A stretch of DNA of 20,332 nt from a virus, in IMG/VR virus record IMGVR_UViG_3300001748_000955, positions 1-20,332 of that record; one strand, given 5' to 3'. This document shows, piece by piece, positions 1 to 20,332 of this stretch. Numbering within the stretch: the first letter of the stretch is position 1; every line of letters begins with the position of its first letter. Below the pieces are notes generated by a model that worked only from the letters and a program-made list of their open reading frames with translations, searched no databases and was not told the origin of the DNA. A program made the position numbers and the translations under genes.

Positions 1-854
1 CGCTCACACTTATCAGCTTCGCGATCATACCCCTGAGCACGCATCCACTTACCAACATCAGTATATGGAACACCCATACCAAGAATCATTTCGCTCTCAA
101 CATTAAACGATGGTCTATCGTATTCTGGATCATCGAAAAGTGATTGAGCAAATTCTCTGTGAGTCATTCCTCCTTTTATTTCTTCAAGAAAGTAACGATA
201 ATATGGATCGTCTTTAGAGGGAATTTTAGTATTAATTGGTTCAGACTGAAAGTTGCTCTTAGTTTCAATCAAGAGATTACGAATTGTTGGATATTCTCTT
301 TTATAATAGTTGAAAACTGGAATTTTGTTGTCAAATACGTCTCTACGCCAGAAGAAGTAAAATGTTCTTCTACGAATTTGTGGGTTACCATGAAGTAGCG
401 TCTTAGTGATGAAGATAGACATGTTATATCCAGCTTCATTAGCAATCTTATTTAGTTTTTCTCTCATGAACTTACCAACGCTTGTAGCGAGAGCCGGAGC
501 ATTTTCACCCCAAAGAACTTTGGGACGAATTTCGTTCAACACCATGTGTGTAGATTTTTCCATCCACTGGTTATTCTGATTATGTTCACCATAGCTTGAA
601 TGGTAACTGCTCAAACCAGCGCAAGGACAGACCGAAGAAACTACATCTACGTTTTCGAAAGTTTTCGGAGCATTTTCTGAATCGAGTATATGATAAGGAA
701 TGTTATAGCCATTCTCCTTATAATGATTGATAAGATGTTTCTCGTTATCAGTGAATCCTGAGTAAGTAAGAATATATTTAGGTTTAGTACCATATACTTT
801 ATCCGAAGCAAGGACTTCTCCGCCAATAAGCGGTATAATAGCAGCATGATCCAT
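1..854 (-). CDS. C5-cytosine DNA methyltransferase-like protein (partial, C-terminus beyond left edge)
   Basis: My translation of the minus strand from ATG at 854 stays open to base 1 (284 codons, no stop). It has the ordered motifs of C5-cytosine DNA methyltransferases: a catalytic Pro-Cys (CPCAGLSSY, Cys78), the Glu-Asn of motif VI (GENAP, about 116-120) and the motif VIII basic block (PQIRRRTF, about 158-165). The SAM-binding N-terminus is less typical (IIPLIGGEVLAS near residue 6). The family transfers a methyl group from SAM to C5 of cytosine through a covalent Cys intermediate. The start overlaps the stop of the upstream gene by one base (TAATG), so it is the last visible gene of the modification operon. 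C5 methylation is odd in a phage that also encodes a dCMP hydroxymethylase. The target-recognition region and C-terminus are not visible, so specificity and activity are open. Confidence 0.8.
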   Translation of the reverse strand, partial: MDHAAIIPLIGGEVLASDKVYGTKPKYILTYSGFTDNEKHLINHYKENGYNIPYHILDSENAPKTFENVDVVSSVCPCAGLSSYHSSYGEHNQNNQWMEKSTHMVLNEIRPKVLWGENAPALATSVGKFMREKLNKIANEAGYNMSIFITKTLLHGNPQIRRRTFYFFWRRDVFDNKIPVFNYYKREYPTIRNLLIETKSNFQSEPINTKIPSKDDPYYRYFLEEIKGGMTHREFAQSLFDDPEYDRPSFNVESEMILGMGVPYTDVGKWMRAQGYDREADKCE

Positions 855-1972
855 TAGTCGAACAGAGCCTCCAATTCTTTTCTTTGTACACTCTTATCGA
901 GTGGATGATTATCATATAAGCATTCTTTTTGTGCTTTTGCAAGGGCTGCTAATTCTGAAGTGCTCATTCCTTCAATTTTAGCGATCGTATTTCCAACATA
1001 TACATCTCCGTAAATAGCACCTTCTTTGTCTGAGCAAAGAAGAATTGATTGTACGTCTGCTACTTGTTGAACACGCGATCTCCACCAACCAGAACCTTCG
1101 TGATAGTAGGTCGGCATCAAACATCCCCAGTTCTGATTGTAAATTCTACACATGTCTGGTTCTTTTACGCGATAAGTCTGTATGCCCTGTGTCTGCTTTG
1201 TTTCTCTACGAGGACCAAAGTTCTTGTGTGGCCAAGTCAGAGTTTGTTTATTGAACCAACTCATAGTTTTGCTCTGTACGATAGAAGAGAAAATCCAGCA
1301 ACGTTCTTTTTCTTCTGGAGCAATAACTGTCTCTTCTTCGCCAAAGAAGTCCATAATACCGCGATCTTCACCATAGTTGTTTTCTGGACAACGATTAAGA
1401 TTGTACGGGTTTGGATTGTATCGAATGATTTCACCATTCCAATTTAAACGAAACTTTGAGTTATCACCACCAGCGAAGGCGCAGAGCATCAGTTTGTTCT
1501 TTTTCTGATTTACGATTTCGCAACCTTGGATAAAGATATCAATATGATTTCCAAGTTCTTCAATTGGAGTATTTCCGCAATAAAGATCTGCGAGATACTT
1601 GTTTGTGTGGTAGTTAAGGAAAGGCTCATTGCGATGTTCTTCGAGGTTCTTCTTATAAACCTGAAATGAATAAGCAACTTCAGCAACCTGCCAGTCATCG
1701 TTTCCAAGAATAGCATCAGGCCGTGCTGTCAGCGCATAAAGCGCGTCAAACGCATAGTGGCTAAAAGATTTTACAGAAGCAAGATAGATAATAACCTTGT
1801 CGTAACCAGAAAGATCTTCGCCAATAGATACAGGTCTTTGATCAATTTCATGGCCCATGTCTTCTAAACACCGTATGAGCGAATAATGCGAATTGAGAAT
1901 TTTAAGTTCTTTTGTAAGAAAATAGTCTCTTGTGCACTGCTCTTTATTGAACCCTGTAATTAAAATTTTCAT
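854..1972 (-). CDS. Putative glycosyltransferase, possibly beta-glucosyltransferase-like
   Basis: A 372-aa protein starting MKILITGF, a Rossmann-type first strand. A second strand-like stretch follows near residue 57 (GYDKVIIYLASVKSF). The C-terminal part (about 300-360) has an Arg-rich turn (WWRSRVQQVADV) followed by a helical tail, resembling the donor-binding domain of GT-B enzymes. By eye the overall pattern (MKI start, DYDxLIV-like strand, Arg before a helix near the C-terminus) recalls T4 beta-glucosyltransferase, but identity is low and I cannot confirm it. Its place between a clear GT-B glycosyltransferase and a C5-methyltransferase-like gene, in one operon with dCMP hydroxymethylase, supports a role in modifying DNA bases. 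GGAG lies about 7 nt before the ATG. It could instead be an unrelated phage-specific protein. Confidence 0.5.
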   Translation of the reverse strand: MKILITGFNKEQCTRDYFLTKELKILNSHYSLIRCLEDMGHEIDQRPVSIGEDLSGYDKVIIYLASVKSFSHYAFDALYALTARPDAILGNDDWQVAEVAYSFQVYKKNLEEHRNEPFLNYHTNKYLADLYCGNTPIEELGNHIDIFIQGCEIVNQKKNKLMLCAFAGGDNSKFRLNWNGEIIRYNPNPYNLNRCPENNYGEDRGIMDFFGEEETVIAPEEKERCWIFSSIVQSKTMSWFNKQTLTWPHKNFGPRRETKQTQGIQTYRVKEPDMCRIYNQNWGCLMPTYYHEGSGWWRSRVQQVADVQSILLCSDKEGAIYGDVYVGNTIAKIEGMSTSELAALAKAQKECLYDNHPLDKSVQRKELEALFD

Positions 1973-1984
1973 AATGCGTCTCCA

Positions 1985-3064
1985 TTATATGAAGAATGAA
2001 GTCAAATCTTTAGACTCATTCTTGTAGTTATCAATAGTTTTATCAACAATATTTTCTATATTAGACTTCCATCTTTCAACAGAATGTTTTTCTTTTGTTC
2101 GTTCTGAGATTTCTACACGTTCCTCGAAAGAAACTTTCTTAAAATCTCGTACAATTTCTTCAAGTTCACCGGGTTTAACCGTGGTTTTTACCTTGACTAT
2201 ATCCCTATTTATTGCCGGAATACACTCCGAAGCGTGAGTTTCTGAAGAATTTGTAACTAAAATTGTTGGTAATCCATGTGCAAGAGCTTCAAGAGCAGTA
2301 ATACCCCAAGTTTCTGATGGACAAGTAGAAATATAGCAACTTGCTTGAGACATCTTTTTCATTGTTTCGATATAGCTAAGACCGCGAATTACTTCGTTCG
2401 GAGCTTCCCAATGTAAGTTTTCTTCGTGATATTTTTTGTGTTCGCCATACAACAATTCAGAAACATAGCTCGTAAGAACGATATTGTGAAGACCAGAGTT
2501 TTTAAGTTTGTTGTGCATCCAAAATGGGTTTTTAGTTTTATCGGTTCTACCAACAGTCACGGCGTCATATTCTGCTTCTGCTACAACTTCAGTTCCATGG
2601 CTAAACGAAGAATTGATGAAACCACCATTCAAATCAAGAGGTTTACTTTCTACTCTTCGTGATAGTTTGTCCATACCCTGCCATTGATGTTCGCTCACCA
2701 TGGAAAGGGTTCCATTCTTAGAAAGAAACTCTTGCATAGATTTTACATGACCAAGTTTAGAAATACCACCGGCACCAGTATGGCTAATCCAAAGGATAGG
2801 AACTTTCACTACGGCTTGTAGTTTAACAGTGATCGGGTCATTGTCATAATTTACAATGATCACATCAGGCTGGTGATGATCGGCTGCAGCAGAGATTAAG
2901 TCTGTGACGCGTCTCTTCTTTCTATCTTCGTCTGTAAAATGTACAGGGATTACATTATCAAAGTTTTGATATATCAATTGTGCAAAACGTTCTATCCCGC
3001 CAATTACAACAGGATCAGAAATTTTAATATTGTTACGAGTAAAATATGGAAGAAGTATTTTCAC
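1985..3064 (-). CDS. GT-B glycosyltransferase (GT4-like), probable base-modification enzyme
   Basis: A 359-aa protein. The N-terminal Rossmann half has an acceptor-side glycine loop (IGGIERFA, about 21-28). The C-terminal half carries the retaining GT4 signature: E251, seven residues, E259, then AHGLP (about 250-267), which binds the nucleotide-sugar donor. The family moves a sugar from a nucleotide sugar to an acceptor. Here the likely acceptor is hydroxymethylcytosine in phage DNA, because the gene sits in the hydroxymethylase operon; that is inference. The start is GTG at 3064-3062, giving a GTGA overlap with the upstream TGA, so translation is probably coupled. The stop is 12 nt before the next gene. 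T4 alpha-glucosyltransferase is the closest functional analogue I can suggest. A role in modifying surface glycans cannot be excluded. Confidence 0.8.
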   Translation of the reverse strand: MKILLPYFTRNNIKISDPVVIGGIERFAQLIYQNFDNVIPVHFTDEDRKKRRVTDLISAAADHHQPDVIIVNYDNDPITVKLQAVVKVPILWISHTGAGGISKLGHVKSMQEFLSKNGTLSMVSEHQWQGMDKLSRRVESKPLDLNGGFINSSFSHGTEVVAEAEYDAVTVGRTDKTKNPFWMHNKLKNSGLHNIVLTSYVSELLYGEHKKYHEENLHWEAPNEVIRGLSYIETMKKMSQASCYISTCPSETWGITALEALAHGLPTILVTNSSETHASECIPAINRDIVKVKTTVKPGELEEIVRDFKKVSFEERVEISERTKEKHSVERWKSNIENIVDKTIDNYKNESKDLTSFFI

Positions 3065-3714
3065 TTAGTCGCCTCATATTGTCTTCGCCATTCGCCATAG
3101 TCATTTTCTAAAAGAGCCCAATGCAGTTTAGTAGTTTTTTCAAAATTTAAAATTCTACGATCCCAAATAACCCATGCATAGGCGATCATGCCACCAGTTT
3201 GATCTTGTTTTTCTACGGGTTCTACGTGACCTTGATCGAACTTAACTCTATCGCTCAAAAATATAATATCACTTGGTGGGTAATTTGTAAACAGCTTATT
3301 TCGTTTTTTTCCTTCAAGGAACGTCAAACGAACAAACATTGCTACATAAGGATATTCTTTTACTGCCTTTTCGGCAATTTTTCGAGGAAGATCTTTATGG
3401 TACGGCGGATTTGTAACCAATCCATCATAGCCTTCCGGTCTTTCTAAATCAAGTACGCCGACGCCGGTCGCAACTTCCACGAGATTGTTGTCATATTCAT
3501 TTAAGTCGAACGATTTTACATTATGACCGTTTCGTTCGAGTTCAATCGAAATATTACCTCGGCCTGCGCAAGGCTCGACAACATTCTGTGGAGGGCGAAC
3601 GTATTTACATAAAATATAAGTTGCTAATGGTGGTGTAGGATAAAAATCGTTTTTTCTTCGATTGCTATCTTGTTTATTCACTCCAACGTAAATGTCTTTT
3701 AAGTTATTTGCCAT
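3061..3714 (-). CDS. DNA methyltransferase, NPPY type (adenine-N6 or cytosine-N4)
   Basis: A 217-aa class I SAM-dependent methyltransferase. It has an N-terminal DFYPTPP element common in phage methyltransferases (about 23-29), SAM motif I (VEPCAGRG, about 46-53), an acidic residue after the next strand (SFDLNE, about 68-73), and catalytic motif IV TNPPY (101-105). NPPY marks amino-methyltransferases of the N6-adenine/N4-cytosine class, which flip the base and methylate the exocyclic amine. There is no obvious separate target-recognition domain, so it resembles short Dam-like or orphan phage enzymes. Its first 11 nt overlap the end of the dCMP deaminase gene, and its stop overlaps the GTG of the glycosyltransferase. 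It probably adds a second layer of modification for restriction avoidance. The target site is unknown. Confidence 0.78.
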   Translation of the reverse strand: MANNLKDIYVGVNKQDSNRRKNDFYPTPPLATYILCKYVRPPQNVVEPCAGRGNISIELERNGHNVKSFDLNEYDNNLVEVATGVGVLDLERPEGYDGLVTNPPYHKDLPRKIAEKAVKEYPYVAMFVRLTFLEGKKRNKLFTNYPPSDIIFLSDRVKFDQGHVEPVEKQDQTGGMIAYAWVIWDRRILNFEKTTKLHWALLENDYGEWRRQYEATK

Positions 3715-4168
3715 CTAATTCACAATCAATATATTCATATTCTACGCCAGCTTCACGAAACATCGTTTCGCTAAGCTTAAATGATTCTATCCAATATTCT
3801 GGATAATCCTTTTGAGGCATTACAACTCTTTTGATACCTACTTGAATTACGCCTTTTGCGCAATCTGAACAGCAGGGAAGTCCCCAGATATAAAGTGTAG
3901 CGCCATCAAGAGATACACCGTTATAAGTAGCGTTGTAAATCGCGTTCATTTCAGCATGTACGATGAATTTATATTTATGCTCTTTTATTTGCCAACGAGG
4001 TTCAAGATCTTCTCTTACTCCTCGAGCAAAACCATTATATCCTTGAGAAAGTACTTGGCCTTTATGACCAATAGCAACAGCTCCAATTTTTGAACTAGTA
4101 TCTTTAGACCAAGTAGATACTTCTTTTGCTAATTTGAGATATCTAATATCCCATTTATTGCTTTTCAT
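3704..4168 (-). CDS. cd: Deoxycytidylate (dCMP) deaminase
   Basis: A 154-aa protein with the zinc-dependent cytidine deaminase core: HAE at 71-73 (zinc His plus catalytic Glu) and the zinc cysteines C100 and C103 in CCSDCAKG. The N-terminal SKIGAVAI and GYNGFARG segments are typical of dCMP deaminases. It converts dCMP to dUMP, feeding dTTP synthesis and balancing dCMP use with the hydroxymethylase upstream. It is somewhat shorter than T4 Cd as I recall it (about 190 aa). I chose the ATG at 4168 because it overlaps the gp42 stop (TGATG) and has GAGGAAC 7 nt upstream; a TTG one codon earlier is possible. Residues before the first zinc cysteine read LPC-C rather than SPC, a minor variation. Confidence 0.9.
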   Translation of the reverse strand: MKSNKWDIRYLKLAKEVSTWSKDTSSKIGAVAIGHKGQVLSQGYNGFARGVREDLEPRWQIKEHKYKFIVHAEMNAIYNATYNGVSLDGATLYIWGLPCCSDCAKGVIQVGIKRVVMPQKDYPEYWIESFKLSETMFREAGVEYEYIDCELDGK

Positions 4169-4824
4169 CAAATCAGTTCCTCTATAAACTTAAAGTGACG
4201 TTCATAAACGTGAAGAGATGAAGCTGTCCAAATTAGATCACCAACTTCAATACGAAGTTCATTGGCGAGCTTACTTTGAACATACCTCGCCCACGCGAAA
4301 TCATTGTTCGCGCCGAATACCGCATCGTTGCTCCTGAGAATGTAGTGAGAATGAAGTTTGTCATTACGAATATGAAAAGAATTTGCAAAGGTGCAAATAA
4401 AGTCATTCATTTCGTCTTCACGATAATCGTCATGTATGGATGGGCGATTATAAATCATCGCGGCCCGGCGGCTATTTGGATTGCGAAGAAGTTCAGTTAG
4501 TACATTTGTATACTGATTTCCGTTCTTCTCGGAAAAGATTAAGTATCCATAATTGGAATTAATGCGCCCGTGTTTTGACGAAACGTCTTTCCAGATTTGT
4601 GGCGTATCTCCAGGAATATCTTCGACATAAAGAGACTGAGACTCGTACCAAGCAAGCTCGCGCGCGATATAGTCATAATTCGGTTTTCGAATAATCCAGT
4701 CCTCGTCAACTAAAAAAGACTCGCCGATGATTTCCACGGTTTTTACGCCGGTTTTATCAACGACAAAGTCTTCGTCTTTATATTTTTGAATAAGTTTGTT
4801 TCGAATATCACTTACTGTTTGCAT
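4168..4824 (-). CDS. 42: dCMP hydroxymethylase (T4 gp42 family)
   Basis: A 218-aa thymidylate-synthase-fold enzyme with strong resemblance to T4 gp42: DKTGVKTVEIIG near residue 23, INSNYG at 88, RRAAMIYNRPS near 119, catalytic Cys144 (DFICTF), RSNDAVFGANND (164-175) and SLHVYERH (203-210). Asp175 stands where thymidylate synthase has Asn, the substitution linked to choosing dCMP over dUMP, so this is a hydroxymethylase and not a thymidylate synthase. It uses methylene-tetrahydrofolate to make 5-hydroxymethyl-dCMP. It is shorter than T4 gp42 (246 aa) at both ends. It is the first gene of the modification operon, with AGGAG 5 nt before the ATG and a consensus early promoter 45-73 nt upstream. 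The phage therefore probably carries hydroxymethylcytosine or a derivative of it. Confidence 0.95.
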   Translation of the reverse strand: MQTVSDIRNKLIQKYKDEDFVVDKTGVKTVEIIGESFLVDEDWIIRKPNYDYIARELAWYESQSLYVEDIPGDTPQIWKDVSSKHGRINSNYGYLIFSEKNGNQYTNVLTELLRNPNSRRAAMIYNRPSIHDDYREDEMNDFICTFANSFHIRNDKLHSHYILRSNDAVFGANNDFAWARYVQSKLANELRIEVGDLIWTASSLHVYERHFKFIEELI

Positions 4825-18624: not shown

Positions 18625-18649
18625 CAAATCGCCAGTTTTGGTTTATGAT
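18621..18649 (+). promoter_or_regulatory. Early promoter of the esterase and sugar genes
   Basis: Plus strand TTGACA (18621-18626), 17-nt spacer, TATGAT (18644-18649). The preceding gene's TGA (18622-18624) lies inside the -35 box. Confidence 0.82.
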
Positions 18650-18673
18650 GATTCTATAATGAAAGGAATCAGT

Positions 18674-19246
18674 ATGATCTATGTCTATCTTCATGGCTTC
18701 AATTCAGCCTATGATCCTCTATCAACAAAAGTTAAAGCACTCTCGACTCTCGGCGAAGTTGTTGGTATTACTTACAACACGTTCGGAACATATGACGAAA
18801 TCTTTTCTGAGATTGAAAGTCAAGTTCCGGATGAAGAAGTCATTTTTGTCGGTACATCACTTGGTGGTTTCTGGGCTGCAGAAATGGCAAAGCACTTCGG
18901 CATGCCCTCTGTAATCATCAATCCTTGTTTGGATCCAAATGAAGCTCTTCGCAAATACATTGATGAGCCTCATCTGAACTACGTAACTGGTGACTATATG
19001 ACTCTGACTGAGGGTGCAGTCAATAGTTATCAAACCGAAGTATCTTCTGATACCGCTTTCTTGCCGCTAGTTCTTTTGGACATGGGTGATGAAGTAATTG
19101 ACTCGTTTGAAACTCGTAAAGCGCTCGAAGGATTTCCAATGGTTCACTACGCTGGTGGTAGTCATCGGTTCGAACACATGGAAGATGCTCTCGAAGAGAT
19201 CGCTGAATATGTAAATCACTGTTCGAATGCTGGTTTATCAGTCTGA
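18674..19246 (+). CDS. Alpha/beta-hydrolase esterase (YqiA/UPF0227-like)
   Basis: A 190-aa alpha/beta hydrolase: MIYVYLHGFNSA (oxyanion HGF, 7-9), nucleophile elbow GTSLGG (Ser62), probable acid Asp139 in LLDMGDEVID, and His164 in GGSHRFEHME. The order and short length match YqiA/YcfP-type esterases. The family cleaves acyl or thio esters; the substrate in phage is unknown. I chose the ATG at 18674 because GAAAGGA sits about 8 nt upstream; earlier in-frame starts fall within the promoter or before this ribosome site. It is the first gene after its early promoter and is followed by the sugar-phosphate genes, with which it may be co-transcribed. Confidence 0.83.
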   Translation: MIYVYLHGFNSAYDPLSTKVKALSTLGEVVGITYNTFGTYDEIFSEIESQVPDEEVIFVGTSLGGFWAAEMAKHFGMPSVIINPCLDPNEALRKYIDEPHLNYVTGDYMTLTEGAVNSYQTEVSSDTAFLPLVLLDMGDEVIDSFETRKALEGFPMVHYAGGSHRFEHMEDALEEIAEYVNHCSNAGLSV

Positions 19247-19278: not shown

Positions 19279-19332
19279 ATGAGTAATGATCCTTGCGACG
19301 ATGTGACTCATTGGATTGGAATGTTGATTTGA
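19279..19332 (+). CDS. 17-codon leader ORF before the phosphomannomutase
   Basis: ATG at 19279, 17 codons (MSNDPCDDVTHWIGMLI), TGA at 19330-19332. It carries the strongest ribosome site in the area: AGGAGG, 8 nt before the ATG. The stop overlaps the TTG start of the phosphomannomutase as TTGA. It most likely works as a coupling leader that brings ribosomes to the weak TTG start; the peptide itself may have no function. Confidence 0.55.
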   Translation: MSNDPCDDVTHWIGMLI

Positions 19333-20033
19333 AAAAGTATATTTTTGATGTAGATGGTACTCTTACGCCAAGTCGTAAACCTATAGAGCAAGATTTTAGA
19401 GATTACTTTCAAGATTTTGCTTCAAAACATAGTGTGTATCTTGTAACAGGAAGCGATAGAAAAAAGACACTTCAGCAGATTGGTCAAAAAATATATGACC
19501 TCTGTGAAAGAGTTTATCAGTGTTCTGGTAACGATGTTTGGGAAAAAGATCAACACATTAGATCTTCGGAAATTGAAATACCGTGCAATATGTACGAAGA
19601 TTTTACTCGATTTTTTAGCGAAAGTAACTTCAAGATAAGAACTGGAACTCATCTAGACAAGAGACCTGGTCTAGTAAACTTTTCCATTATAGGCCGTAAT
19701 TGTACTCAGTCAGAGCGACAAGAATATATTGAATATGATAATGCCTTTCAGGAAAGAGAACACATAGCTGCGGCACTTCGACGAAAGTATTCGGATTTTG
19801 ATATACAAATTGCCGGTGAAACTGGAATAGATATTACGCTCAAAGGAAAGGATAAGTCTCAGATCATAAAAGATTTTGATACGAGTGATCAACTTCATTT
19901 CTTTGGTGATAAGATGAATCCAAACGGAAACGATTATTCTCTTGCTCAGAGAGTACTCGAACGAAACAGATTTGTATACAACGTCAAGTCTTGGGAAGAA
20001 ACATGGGAACATCTAAAAAAATTGTCGGTCTGA
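19329..20033 (+). CDS. Phosphomannomutase, eukaryote-type HAD family (PMM2-like)
   Basis: A 234-aa HAD phosphotransferase close to eukaryotic phosphomannomutase (human PMM2, 246 aa). Nucleophile and acid are Asp7 and Asp9 in FDVDGTLTPSR; TGSDR follows near residue 43; the substrate loop reads NFSIIGRNCTQSER, paralleling the PMM2 segment with its two key arginines; GDKMNPNGND near 197 is the Mg site. The family interconverts mannose-6-P (or glucose-6-P) and the 1-phosphate, the precursor of nucleotide sugars. I chose TTG 19329 because the family start (KKYIFDVDG) begins there and it overlaps the leader stop; a TTG at 19293 is possible. It overlaps the next gene by 31 nt. It probably supplies sugar-1-phosphate for DNA or another glycosylation. 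Confidence 0.85.
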   Translation: MKKYIFDVDGTLTPSRKPIEQDFRDYFQDFASKHSVYLVTGSDRKKTLQQIGQKIYDLCERVYQCSGNDVWEKDQHIRSSEIEIPCNMYEDFTRFFSESNFKIRTGTHLDKRPGLVNFSIIGRNCTQSERQEYIEYDNAFQEREHIAAALRRKYSDFDIQIAGETGIDITLKGKDKSQIIKDFDTSDQLHFFGDKMNPNGNDYSLAQRVLERNRFVYNVKSWEETWEHLKKLSV

Positions 20034-20332
20034 CATGTAGTACTTTTGACTTGTTGCACGCGGGTCACATTCAAATGTTACGTGAAGCTAAATCGCATTG
20101 TGATTATTTGATTGTCGCATTACAGGTTGATCCGAGTGATGATCGCCCAGAAAAGAATGCTCCAGTACAGACTTTGGTAGAAAGATATGTACAACTCTCG
20201 GCAGTTAAATATGTTGATGAAATCGTCACATATCAGAACGAAAGAGACTTGGAAGATATTCTTGAGATGTTTCCAATTGATATGCGCATTCTTGGTGAAG
20301 AGTACAGAGACAAAGACTTTACTGGTCGCGAA
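20003..20332 (+). CDS. Cytidylyltransferase-like nucleotidyltransferase (partial, C-terminus beyond right edge)
   Basis: My translation from ATG 20003 stays open to the end (110 codons). It begins MGTSKKIVGLTCSTFDLLHAG, with the HxGH nucleotide-binding motif (LLHAGH) after the first strand, then DYLIVALQVDPS, a RYVQLSAVKYVDEI helix and MRILGEEYRDKDFTG, which matches the layout of TagD glycerol-3-phosphate cytidylyltransferase and the RfaE/HldE nucleotidyltransferase domain. The family joins CTP or ATP to a phosphorylated sugar or alcohol, giving CDP- or ADP-linked products. GGAAG precedes the ATG, which lies inside the phosphomannomutase gene, so the two are probably translated together. Substrate and full length are unknown. 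Confidence 0.82.
   Translation, partial: MGTSKKIVGLTCSTFDLLHAGHIQMLREAKSHCDYLIVALQVDPSDDRPEKNAPVQTLVERYVQLSAVKYVDEIVTYQNERDLEDILEMFPIDMRILGEEYRDKDFTGRE

Follow-up and report, generated by a model that had tools for sequence, protein, structure and literature searches.

We propose that a phosphomannomutase (PMM) gene and an HxGH nucleotidyltransferase (NTase) gene in an environmental T4-like phage probably act together to supply the sugar donor for glycosylation of cytosines in the phage's DNA. The window we analyzed is the complete IMG/VR contig IMGVR_UViG_3300001748_000955 (20,332 bp). A 194,645-bp contig (L002/G001) represents the same phage, with 99.96-99.99% identity across the whole window, and prolongs the window on both sides. 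Gene identities were established from profiles, and the analysis also established catalytic residues, the overlap between the paired genes, synteny, and the folds of protein models. The results suggest that phages carrying the pair beside cytosine-sugar enzymes themselves produce the sugar that masks their DNA. The pair comprises the following features:

19329-20033, plus strand: HAD-family phosphohexomutase of the eukaryotic PMM type (234 aa, TTG start), assigned from PF03332, PDB relatives, and invariant residues
20003-20332, plus strand: HxGH NTase of the TagD/HldE-C superfamily (ATG start, PF01467), cut at the contig end
20003-20033, plus strand: 31-nt PMM/NTase overlap, with the NTase ATG inside the PMM frame; similar overlaps or abutments occur in relatives

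The initial annotation had identified the first gene as a eukaryote-type PMM from its FDVDGTL segment, two-arginine loop, and GDKxxPxGND segment. All of these motifs are present, and the product matches the Pfam PMM profile (PF03332) with an E-value of 5e-27 and 95.6 bits (cut-off 22.4); HAD Hydrolase_3 ranks second. The closest solved structures are phosphomannomutases, which fill the top 15 places in a PDB search (best E 3.7e-30). The last two matches, both weak, are to alpha-phosphoglucomutase (4bnd), so family membership is compatible with either mannose or glucose. The motifs read FDVDGTLTPSR (D7, D9, R16), RPGLVNFSIIGR (R112, R123), and GDKMNPNGND (D194, N201, D202), and each residue named here is invariant across 18 phage homologues. 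The protein departs from the PMM alignment at QRGT and GGQIS, where one further cap Arg is replaced by Thr and a Ser by Gly; these positions are flanked by R104 and T165, respectively. Cellular homologues are found mostly on phage-like contigs in MAGs. Chromosomal-looking homologues are 31-37% identical, and one of them sits two genes from a phosphoglucose-isomerase-type SIS gene, a neighborhood that is suggestive only. Directly 5' of the PMM gene in the window lies a gene for a YqiA-type esterase (18638-19246; UPF0227, E 7e-23). At locus L152, a related gene precedes the NTase with no PMM in between.

The second gene had been read as an HxGH nucleotidyltransferase overlapping the PMM gene by 31 nt, and this description holds. 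The protein has an HAGH motif, and its ATG at 20003 lies within the frame that ends at 20033. Its cut form matches PF01467 (CTP_transf_like) with an E-value of 1.3e-12 and 48.5 bits (cut-off 21), and the full-length protein on the 194,645-bp contig has 145 aa (L002:10675-11112). The NTase scores highest with heptose-1-P adenylyltransferase (TIGR02199, rfaE_dom_II; 73.3 bits against a cut-off of 181.5), followed by TagD glycerol-3-P cytidylyltransferase (TIGR01518; 64.6 bits against 165.4), and thus falls below both NCBIfam cut-offs. HldE-C and TagD are likewise HxGH nucleotidyltransferases of about 140 aa; the phage protein differs from them in these sub-threshold scores and in a C-terminal RFSSSGLRKR motif. 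The NTase family is common and was found in at least 599 stretches.

The proposed coupling of the two genes is borne out in many relatives. An NTase lies close to the PMM in about 17 of the 31 loci found with PMM. The genes overlap or closely abut in the order PMM-NTase at L003-L008 and L013-L018 (as they do at the phage's own L002) and appear in the reversed order at L020 and L024; L021 is cut, and at L019 they are a few genes apart. The cultured phage Ab1-TPeters also has the order NTase-PMM. Because this close arrangement recurs, and does so in both orders, the pairing is not a product of chance. Among 80 loci found with the NTase, a PMM is present within four genes in 37, a nucleotide-sugar epimerase in 30, a cupin in 12, and a UDP-glucose/GDP-mannose dehydrogenase in 8.

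The window also encodes a predicted operon for modifying cytosine, located about 14 kb from the pair and on the opposite strand:

4168-4824, minus strand: dCMP hydroxymethylase (HMase) of the T4 gp42 type, the predicted supplier of the acceptor base (phmmer, identity to T4)
3704-4171, minus strand: dCMP deaminase (PF00383, E 7e-19; phrog_174)
3061-3714, minus strand: DNA methyltransferase-like protein (phrog_799, E 1.8e-41; without a Pfam match)
1985-3064, minus strand: GT-B glycosyltransferase (PF00534, 27.5 bits)
854-1972, minus strand: putative DNA glycosyltransferase of phrog_14998 with a T4 BGT-like fold (structure model, HMase synteny)
3-854, minus strand: C5-methyltransferase-like protein (PF00145), a nearly constant neighbor of phrog_14998, truncated by the window edge

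These genes include the hydroxymethylase and two glycosyltransferases (GTs; 1985-3064 and 854-1972) that the initial annotation had reported. The HMase is 51% identical to T4 gp42 and 31% identical to its RB69 homologue. Its phmmer E-value to T4 HMase is 2e-68, whereas most thymidylate synthases score about 1e-9 or weaker, placing the protein nearer to T4 gp42 than to either thymidylate synthase or the RB69 enzyme. A search with 1985-3064 against cultured phages gave no match. In the closest relatives, the slot between the dCMP deaminase and phrog_14998 is occupied by a PF00534 gene or a GT8 gene. We considered PF00534 as a common consumer for the PMM-NTase cassette and rejected it, as it is present in only 6 of 19 records.

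phrog_14998 carries no assigned function in PHROGs. The model of 854-1972 (mean pLDDT 84) has a GT-B fold closest to the T4 DNA glucosyltransferases. Its best match is the beta-glucosyltransferase BGT (Foldseek 1.5e-7; Z 18.2 over 306 residues, with 12% sequence identity in the structural alignment), followed by the alpha-glucosyltransferase AGT (Z 16.4) and other GT-B proteins (Z of 15.9 or less). The family is also embedded in cytosine-modification loci: 76 of 80 viral loci found with phrog_14998 contain an HMase, 73 contain a C5-methyltransferase-like gene, and 22 contain a UDP-galactopyranose mutase. From the model, phrog_14998 is probably an unannotated family of DNA glycosyltransferases. 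Members also occur in phages of Aeromonas, Erwinia, and Morganella; the neighboring gene is a UDP-galactopyranose mutase in the Erwinia case and an arabinose-5-P isomerase in the Morganella case. We rejected the idea that phrog_14998 is a constant partner of PMM or NTase; most phrog_14998 contigs, many of them partial, show neither. The C5-methyltransferase-like protein is 410 aa in its full form in G001. A C5-cytosine methyltransferase-like gene beside HMase and phrog_14998 is odd where cytosines should already bear a 5-substituent.

The strongest evidence that the NTase serves cytosine glycosylation comes from a scan seeded with the HMase alone, which returned 80 viral loci. Decisive counts were made by tblastn; a simple gene caller had dropped some overlapping NTase frames. 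An NTase (67-77% identical) is present in 48 of the 80 loci, always on the HMase strand. At 40 of these 48, the end of the NTase match falls in the interval from 26 nt ahead of the HMase match to 10 nt into it. Other genes in the 80 loci include dCMP deaminase (75), AGT (27), epimerase (26), nucleotide-sugar dehydrogenase (21), PMM (21), phrog_14998 (13), and the TET-associated glycosyltransferase TAGT (6). The loci are related to one another and form 18 clusters at 75% HMase identity, with an NTase in 10 clusters and a PMM in 7. Operons that join NTase and HMase contain a T4-type AGT (DNA alpha-glucosyltransferase, PF11440, E 7.7e-30), a TAGT (PF20691, E 5e-19), or phrog_14998, and some add a phosphomutase, nucleotide-sugar dehydrogenase, epimerase, or UDP-galactopyranose mutase. 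The L182 series, on which our assignment of the NTase to cytosine glycosylation also relies, reads PMM, NTase, sugar-nucleotide dehydrogenase, HMase, dCMP deaminase, DNA alpha-glucosyltransferase, epimerase, C5-methyltransferase, and UvsX. At L181, PMM-NTase, HMase, epimerase, phrog_14998, and Glf lie inside about 10 kb, and the cultured Acinetobacter phage AB1I1M-1 has an HMase, two GTs, and a PMM-type gene inside 6 kb.

The neighborhood of the pair in this phage is less telling. It had been suggested that extending the contig to the right might reveal more sugar genes, and none is adjacent in the 194.6-kb contig. Reading by eye, we found a Dps-like gene, homing endonucleases, thymidine kinase, an endonuclease-III-like gene, and topoisomerase 3' of the NTase. 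G005 and G045 keep the window's arrangement of the pair and the HMase operon. In both (G005 at L179:1857-4954), the window's gene order and the PMM-NTase pair are kept while the GTs are swapped for three other proteins: one of 414 aa and unknown family, a small one of the HAD type, and one of 507 aa with an NTP-transferase domain. In G046 and G047, partial contigs whose GT operon is 73% identical to that of the window, an FkbM-type methyltransferase gene occupies the pair's syntenic site. No HMase was found in many records with a PMM and/or an NTase, several of them fragments; examples are the cyanophages S-SSM7 and P-TIM68 and phiKT1024, a Vibrio phage. The claim that the pair supplies a sugar donor for base glycosylation, possibly bypassing host UDP-glucose, is upheld in part: it is strengthened by the NTase abutting the HMase in 40 of 48 loci and by operons shared with DNA GTs, and weakened by the distance and strand change between pair and operon in this phage, by G046 and G047, whose GT operon is the nearest to that of the window but which have no pair in the corresponding place, and by the records without a detected HMase. 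Overall, synteny largely supports the donor-supply interpretation.

We weighed three other explanations for the pair. The activated sugar could be destined for a glycan on the cell surface or virion (LPS, capsule, or a tail-linked sugar) rather than for DNA, which we regard as unlikely. The same phage carries its other sugar genes in a heptose-type cluster beside structural genes (G001:C1:107382-116990, L061) that encodes an NTase-cupin fusion, an HldE-N-like kinase, an NTase, an HldD-like epimerase, a cupin, and a DXD glycosyltransferase; the HldE-N and HldD labels rest on sequence reading and weak epimerase matches. This cluster could be a consumer of the pair's product. In cyanophage S-SSM7, in which no HMase was detected, several genes for nucleotide-sugar epimerases are situated about 6 kb away from the PMM. 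Pelagimyophage LPS genes have been interpreted along the same lines (PMC7029224). A surface destination is harder to reconcile with the 40 loci in which the NTase abuts the HMase and with operons shared with three families of DNA glycosyltransferase. We give still less weight to the idea that the two are separate metabolic genes, with the PMM balancing sugar phosphates and a TagD-like cytidylyltransferase acting on a non-sugar phosphate. The NTase does match structures of ethanolamine-P and glycerol-3-P cytidylyltransferases, and the genes occur apart in P-TIM68 (PMM without an adjacent NTase) and phiKT1024 (NTase without PMM). Against this stand their recurrent adjacency in both orders, also beside nucleotide-sugar dehydrogenase and epimerase genes, and an NTase score slightly higher to heptose-1-P adenylyltransferase than to TagD.

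It is similarly improbable, in our estimate, that the pair is a donor module with several acceptors, namely hmC where an HMase is encoded and, in HMase-negative phages, a base of deazaguanine type inserted by a TGT. In HMase-negative phages, the cassette lies between DNA polymerase and a clamp-like gene, which is followed by a gene for a TGT-fold protein; about 30 loci show the cassette followed by the clamp-like and TGT-fold genes. Structure comparison assigned the TGT fold with a Z of 19.6, and all 50 matches listed were TGT. Six HMase-negative records contain a PTPS/QueD-type gene. Together, these features hint that the acceptor in such phages may be a modified base of another type. Countering this explanation, the TGT-like protein lacks a sequence match to the DpdA or TGT families, the QueC evidence is weak, and the cassette has no GT tied to it. 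The TGT-like protein matched nothing in Pfam, PHROGs, NCBIfam, or the PDB sequences, and its assignment comes from fold comparison only. The proteins are 485-540 aa, carry DSGGFQ and FDCASP motifs, and follow an NTase-PMM-epimerase cassette in HMase-negative phages. They are encoded at L186:8434-9891 (minus strand), L127:12903-14360 (plus strand), and about 29 more loci of the same cluster. The modeled fold makes a new family of DpdA-type DNA transglycosylases possible.

Under our preferred model of donor supply for cytosine glycosylation, the HMase, whose gene is present and whose chemistry is predicted from its family, would make hm-dCMP for phage DNA. The HAD phosphomutase would convert a host hexose-6-phosphate (mannose-6-P or glucose-6-P) to hexose-1-phosphate, which the HxGH NTase would join to a nucleotide, giving an NDP-hexose. 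The sugar would then be transferred to hmC in DNA by one or both GTs encoded with the HMase, most likely the T4-BGT-fold protein (854-1972). The enzyme substrates, the activating nucleotide, the presence of a sugar on DNA, and the passage of the NTase product to the GTs are all inferred. In relatives, a dehydrogenase, epimerase, or UDP-galactopyranose mutase may alter the sugar after activation. We found neither such a dehydrogenase nor a mutase in this phage, and a phmmer search of the G001 proteome with the RB69 sugar genes (RB69p051-p053 and p055; E 0.01) returned no homologues, leading us to reject an RB69-type arabinose pathway. Given these absences, our simplest guess is that the sugar is a plain hexose.

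The DNA glucosyltransferases of T4 draw on host UDP-glucose. The window phage resembles T4 in combining an HMase with a GT-B DNA glycosyltransferase, the fold of 854-1972 being closest to BGT, and differs in encoding its own donor pair. RB69 had been cited as a precedent for a T4-like phage using arabinose. The sugar is indeed arabinose, but a 2026 paper (PMC13390438) reports that it is attached to 5-hydroxycytosine and not to hmC. RB69 and other Mosigvirus phages share with the window phage a T4-like genome, phage donor genes near an HMase-type gene and DNA polymerase, and a cytosine sugar (PMC6024577, PMC13390438). They differ in their donor genes, an arabinose-5-P isomerase and an NTP-transferase-type protein (PMC6024577, PMC13390438), and in their base enzyme, a 5-hydroxy-dCMP synthase that is 31% identical to the window HMase. 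The annotation of Bacillus phage SP-15 includes a phosphomannomutase along with donor genes that serve a base carrying a sugar (PMC5977210). By annotation, it shares with our phage a phage-encoded phosphomannomutase, sugar-1-P nucleotidyltransferase, and glycosyltransferases; it differs in using a UTP-glucose-1-P uridylyltransferase and a modified uracil, in place of the HxGH NTase and presumed hmC of the window phage (PMC5977210). Since SP-15 and RB69-type arabinosylation precede it, phage-encoded donor supply for DNA glycosylation is an already known kind of system. What is new is a version with PMM and an HxGH NTase and with tight NTase-HMase synteny. Our literature search, incomplete in coverage, found no description of a PMM-NTase pair in T4-like phages.

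A broader reading, which we offer tentatively, is that a widespread T4-like donor cassette feeds base glycosylation with sugars unseen on DNA, such as mannose, hexuronate, or galactofuranose. The cassette would comprise the HAD phosphohexomutase and HxGH sugar-1-phosphate NTase with optional cupin, epimerase, dehydrogenase, and UDP-galactopyranose mutase, and the acceptor (hmC or a TGT-inserted deazaguanine-type base) would be exchangeable, with one acceptor per lineage. The work yields a probable, so far unannotated DNA glycosyltransferase family, phrog_14998, along with candidate enzymes and a synteny rule in which an NTase directly upstream of an HMase would predict unusual DNA sugars. If our model is correct, a large group of environmental T4-like phages would make their own activated sugars for DNA hypermodification, using a eukaryotic-type phosphomutase and an NTase family so far tied to heptose and teichoic-acid chemistry. 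A sugar coat on DNA determines whether a given restriction or other defence system can act against a phage.
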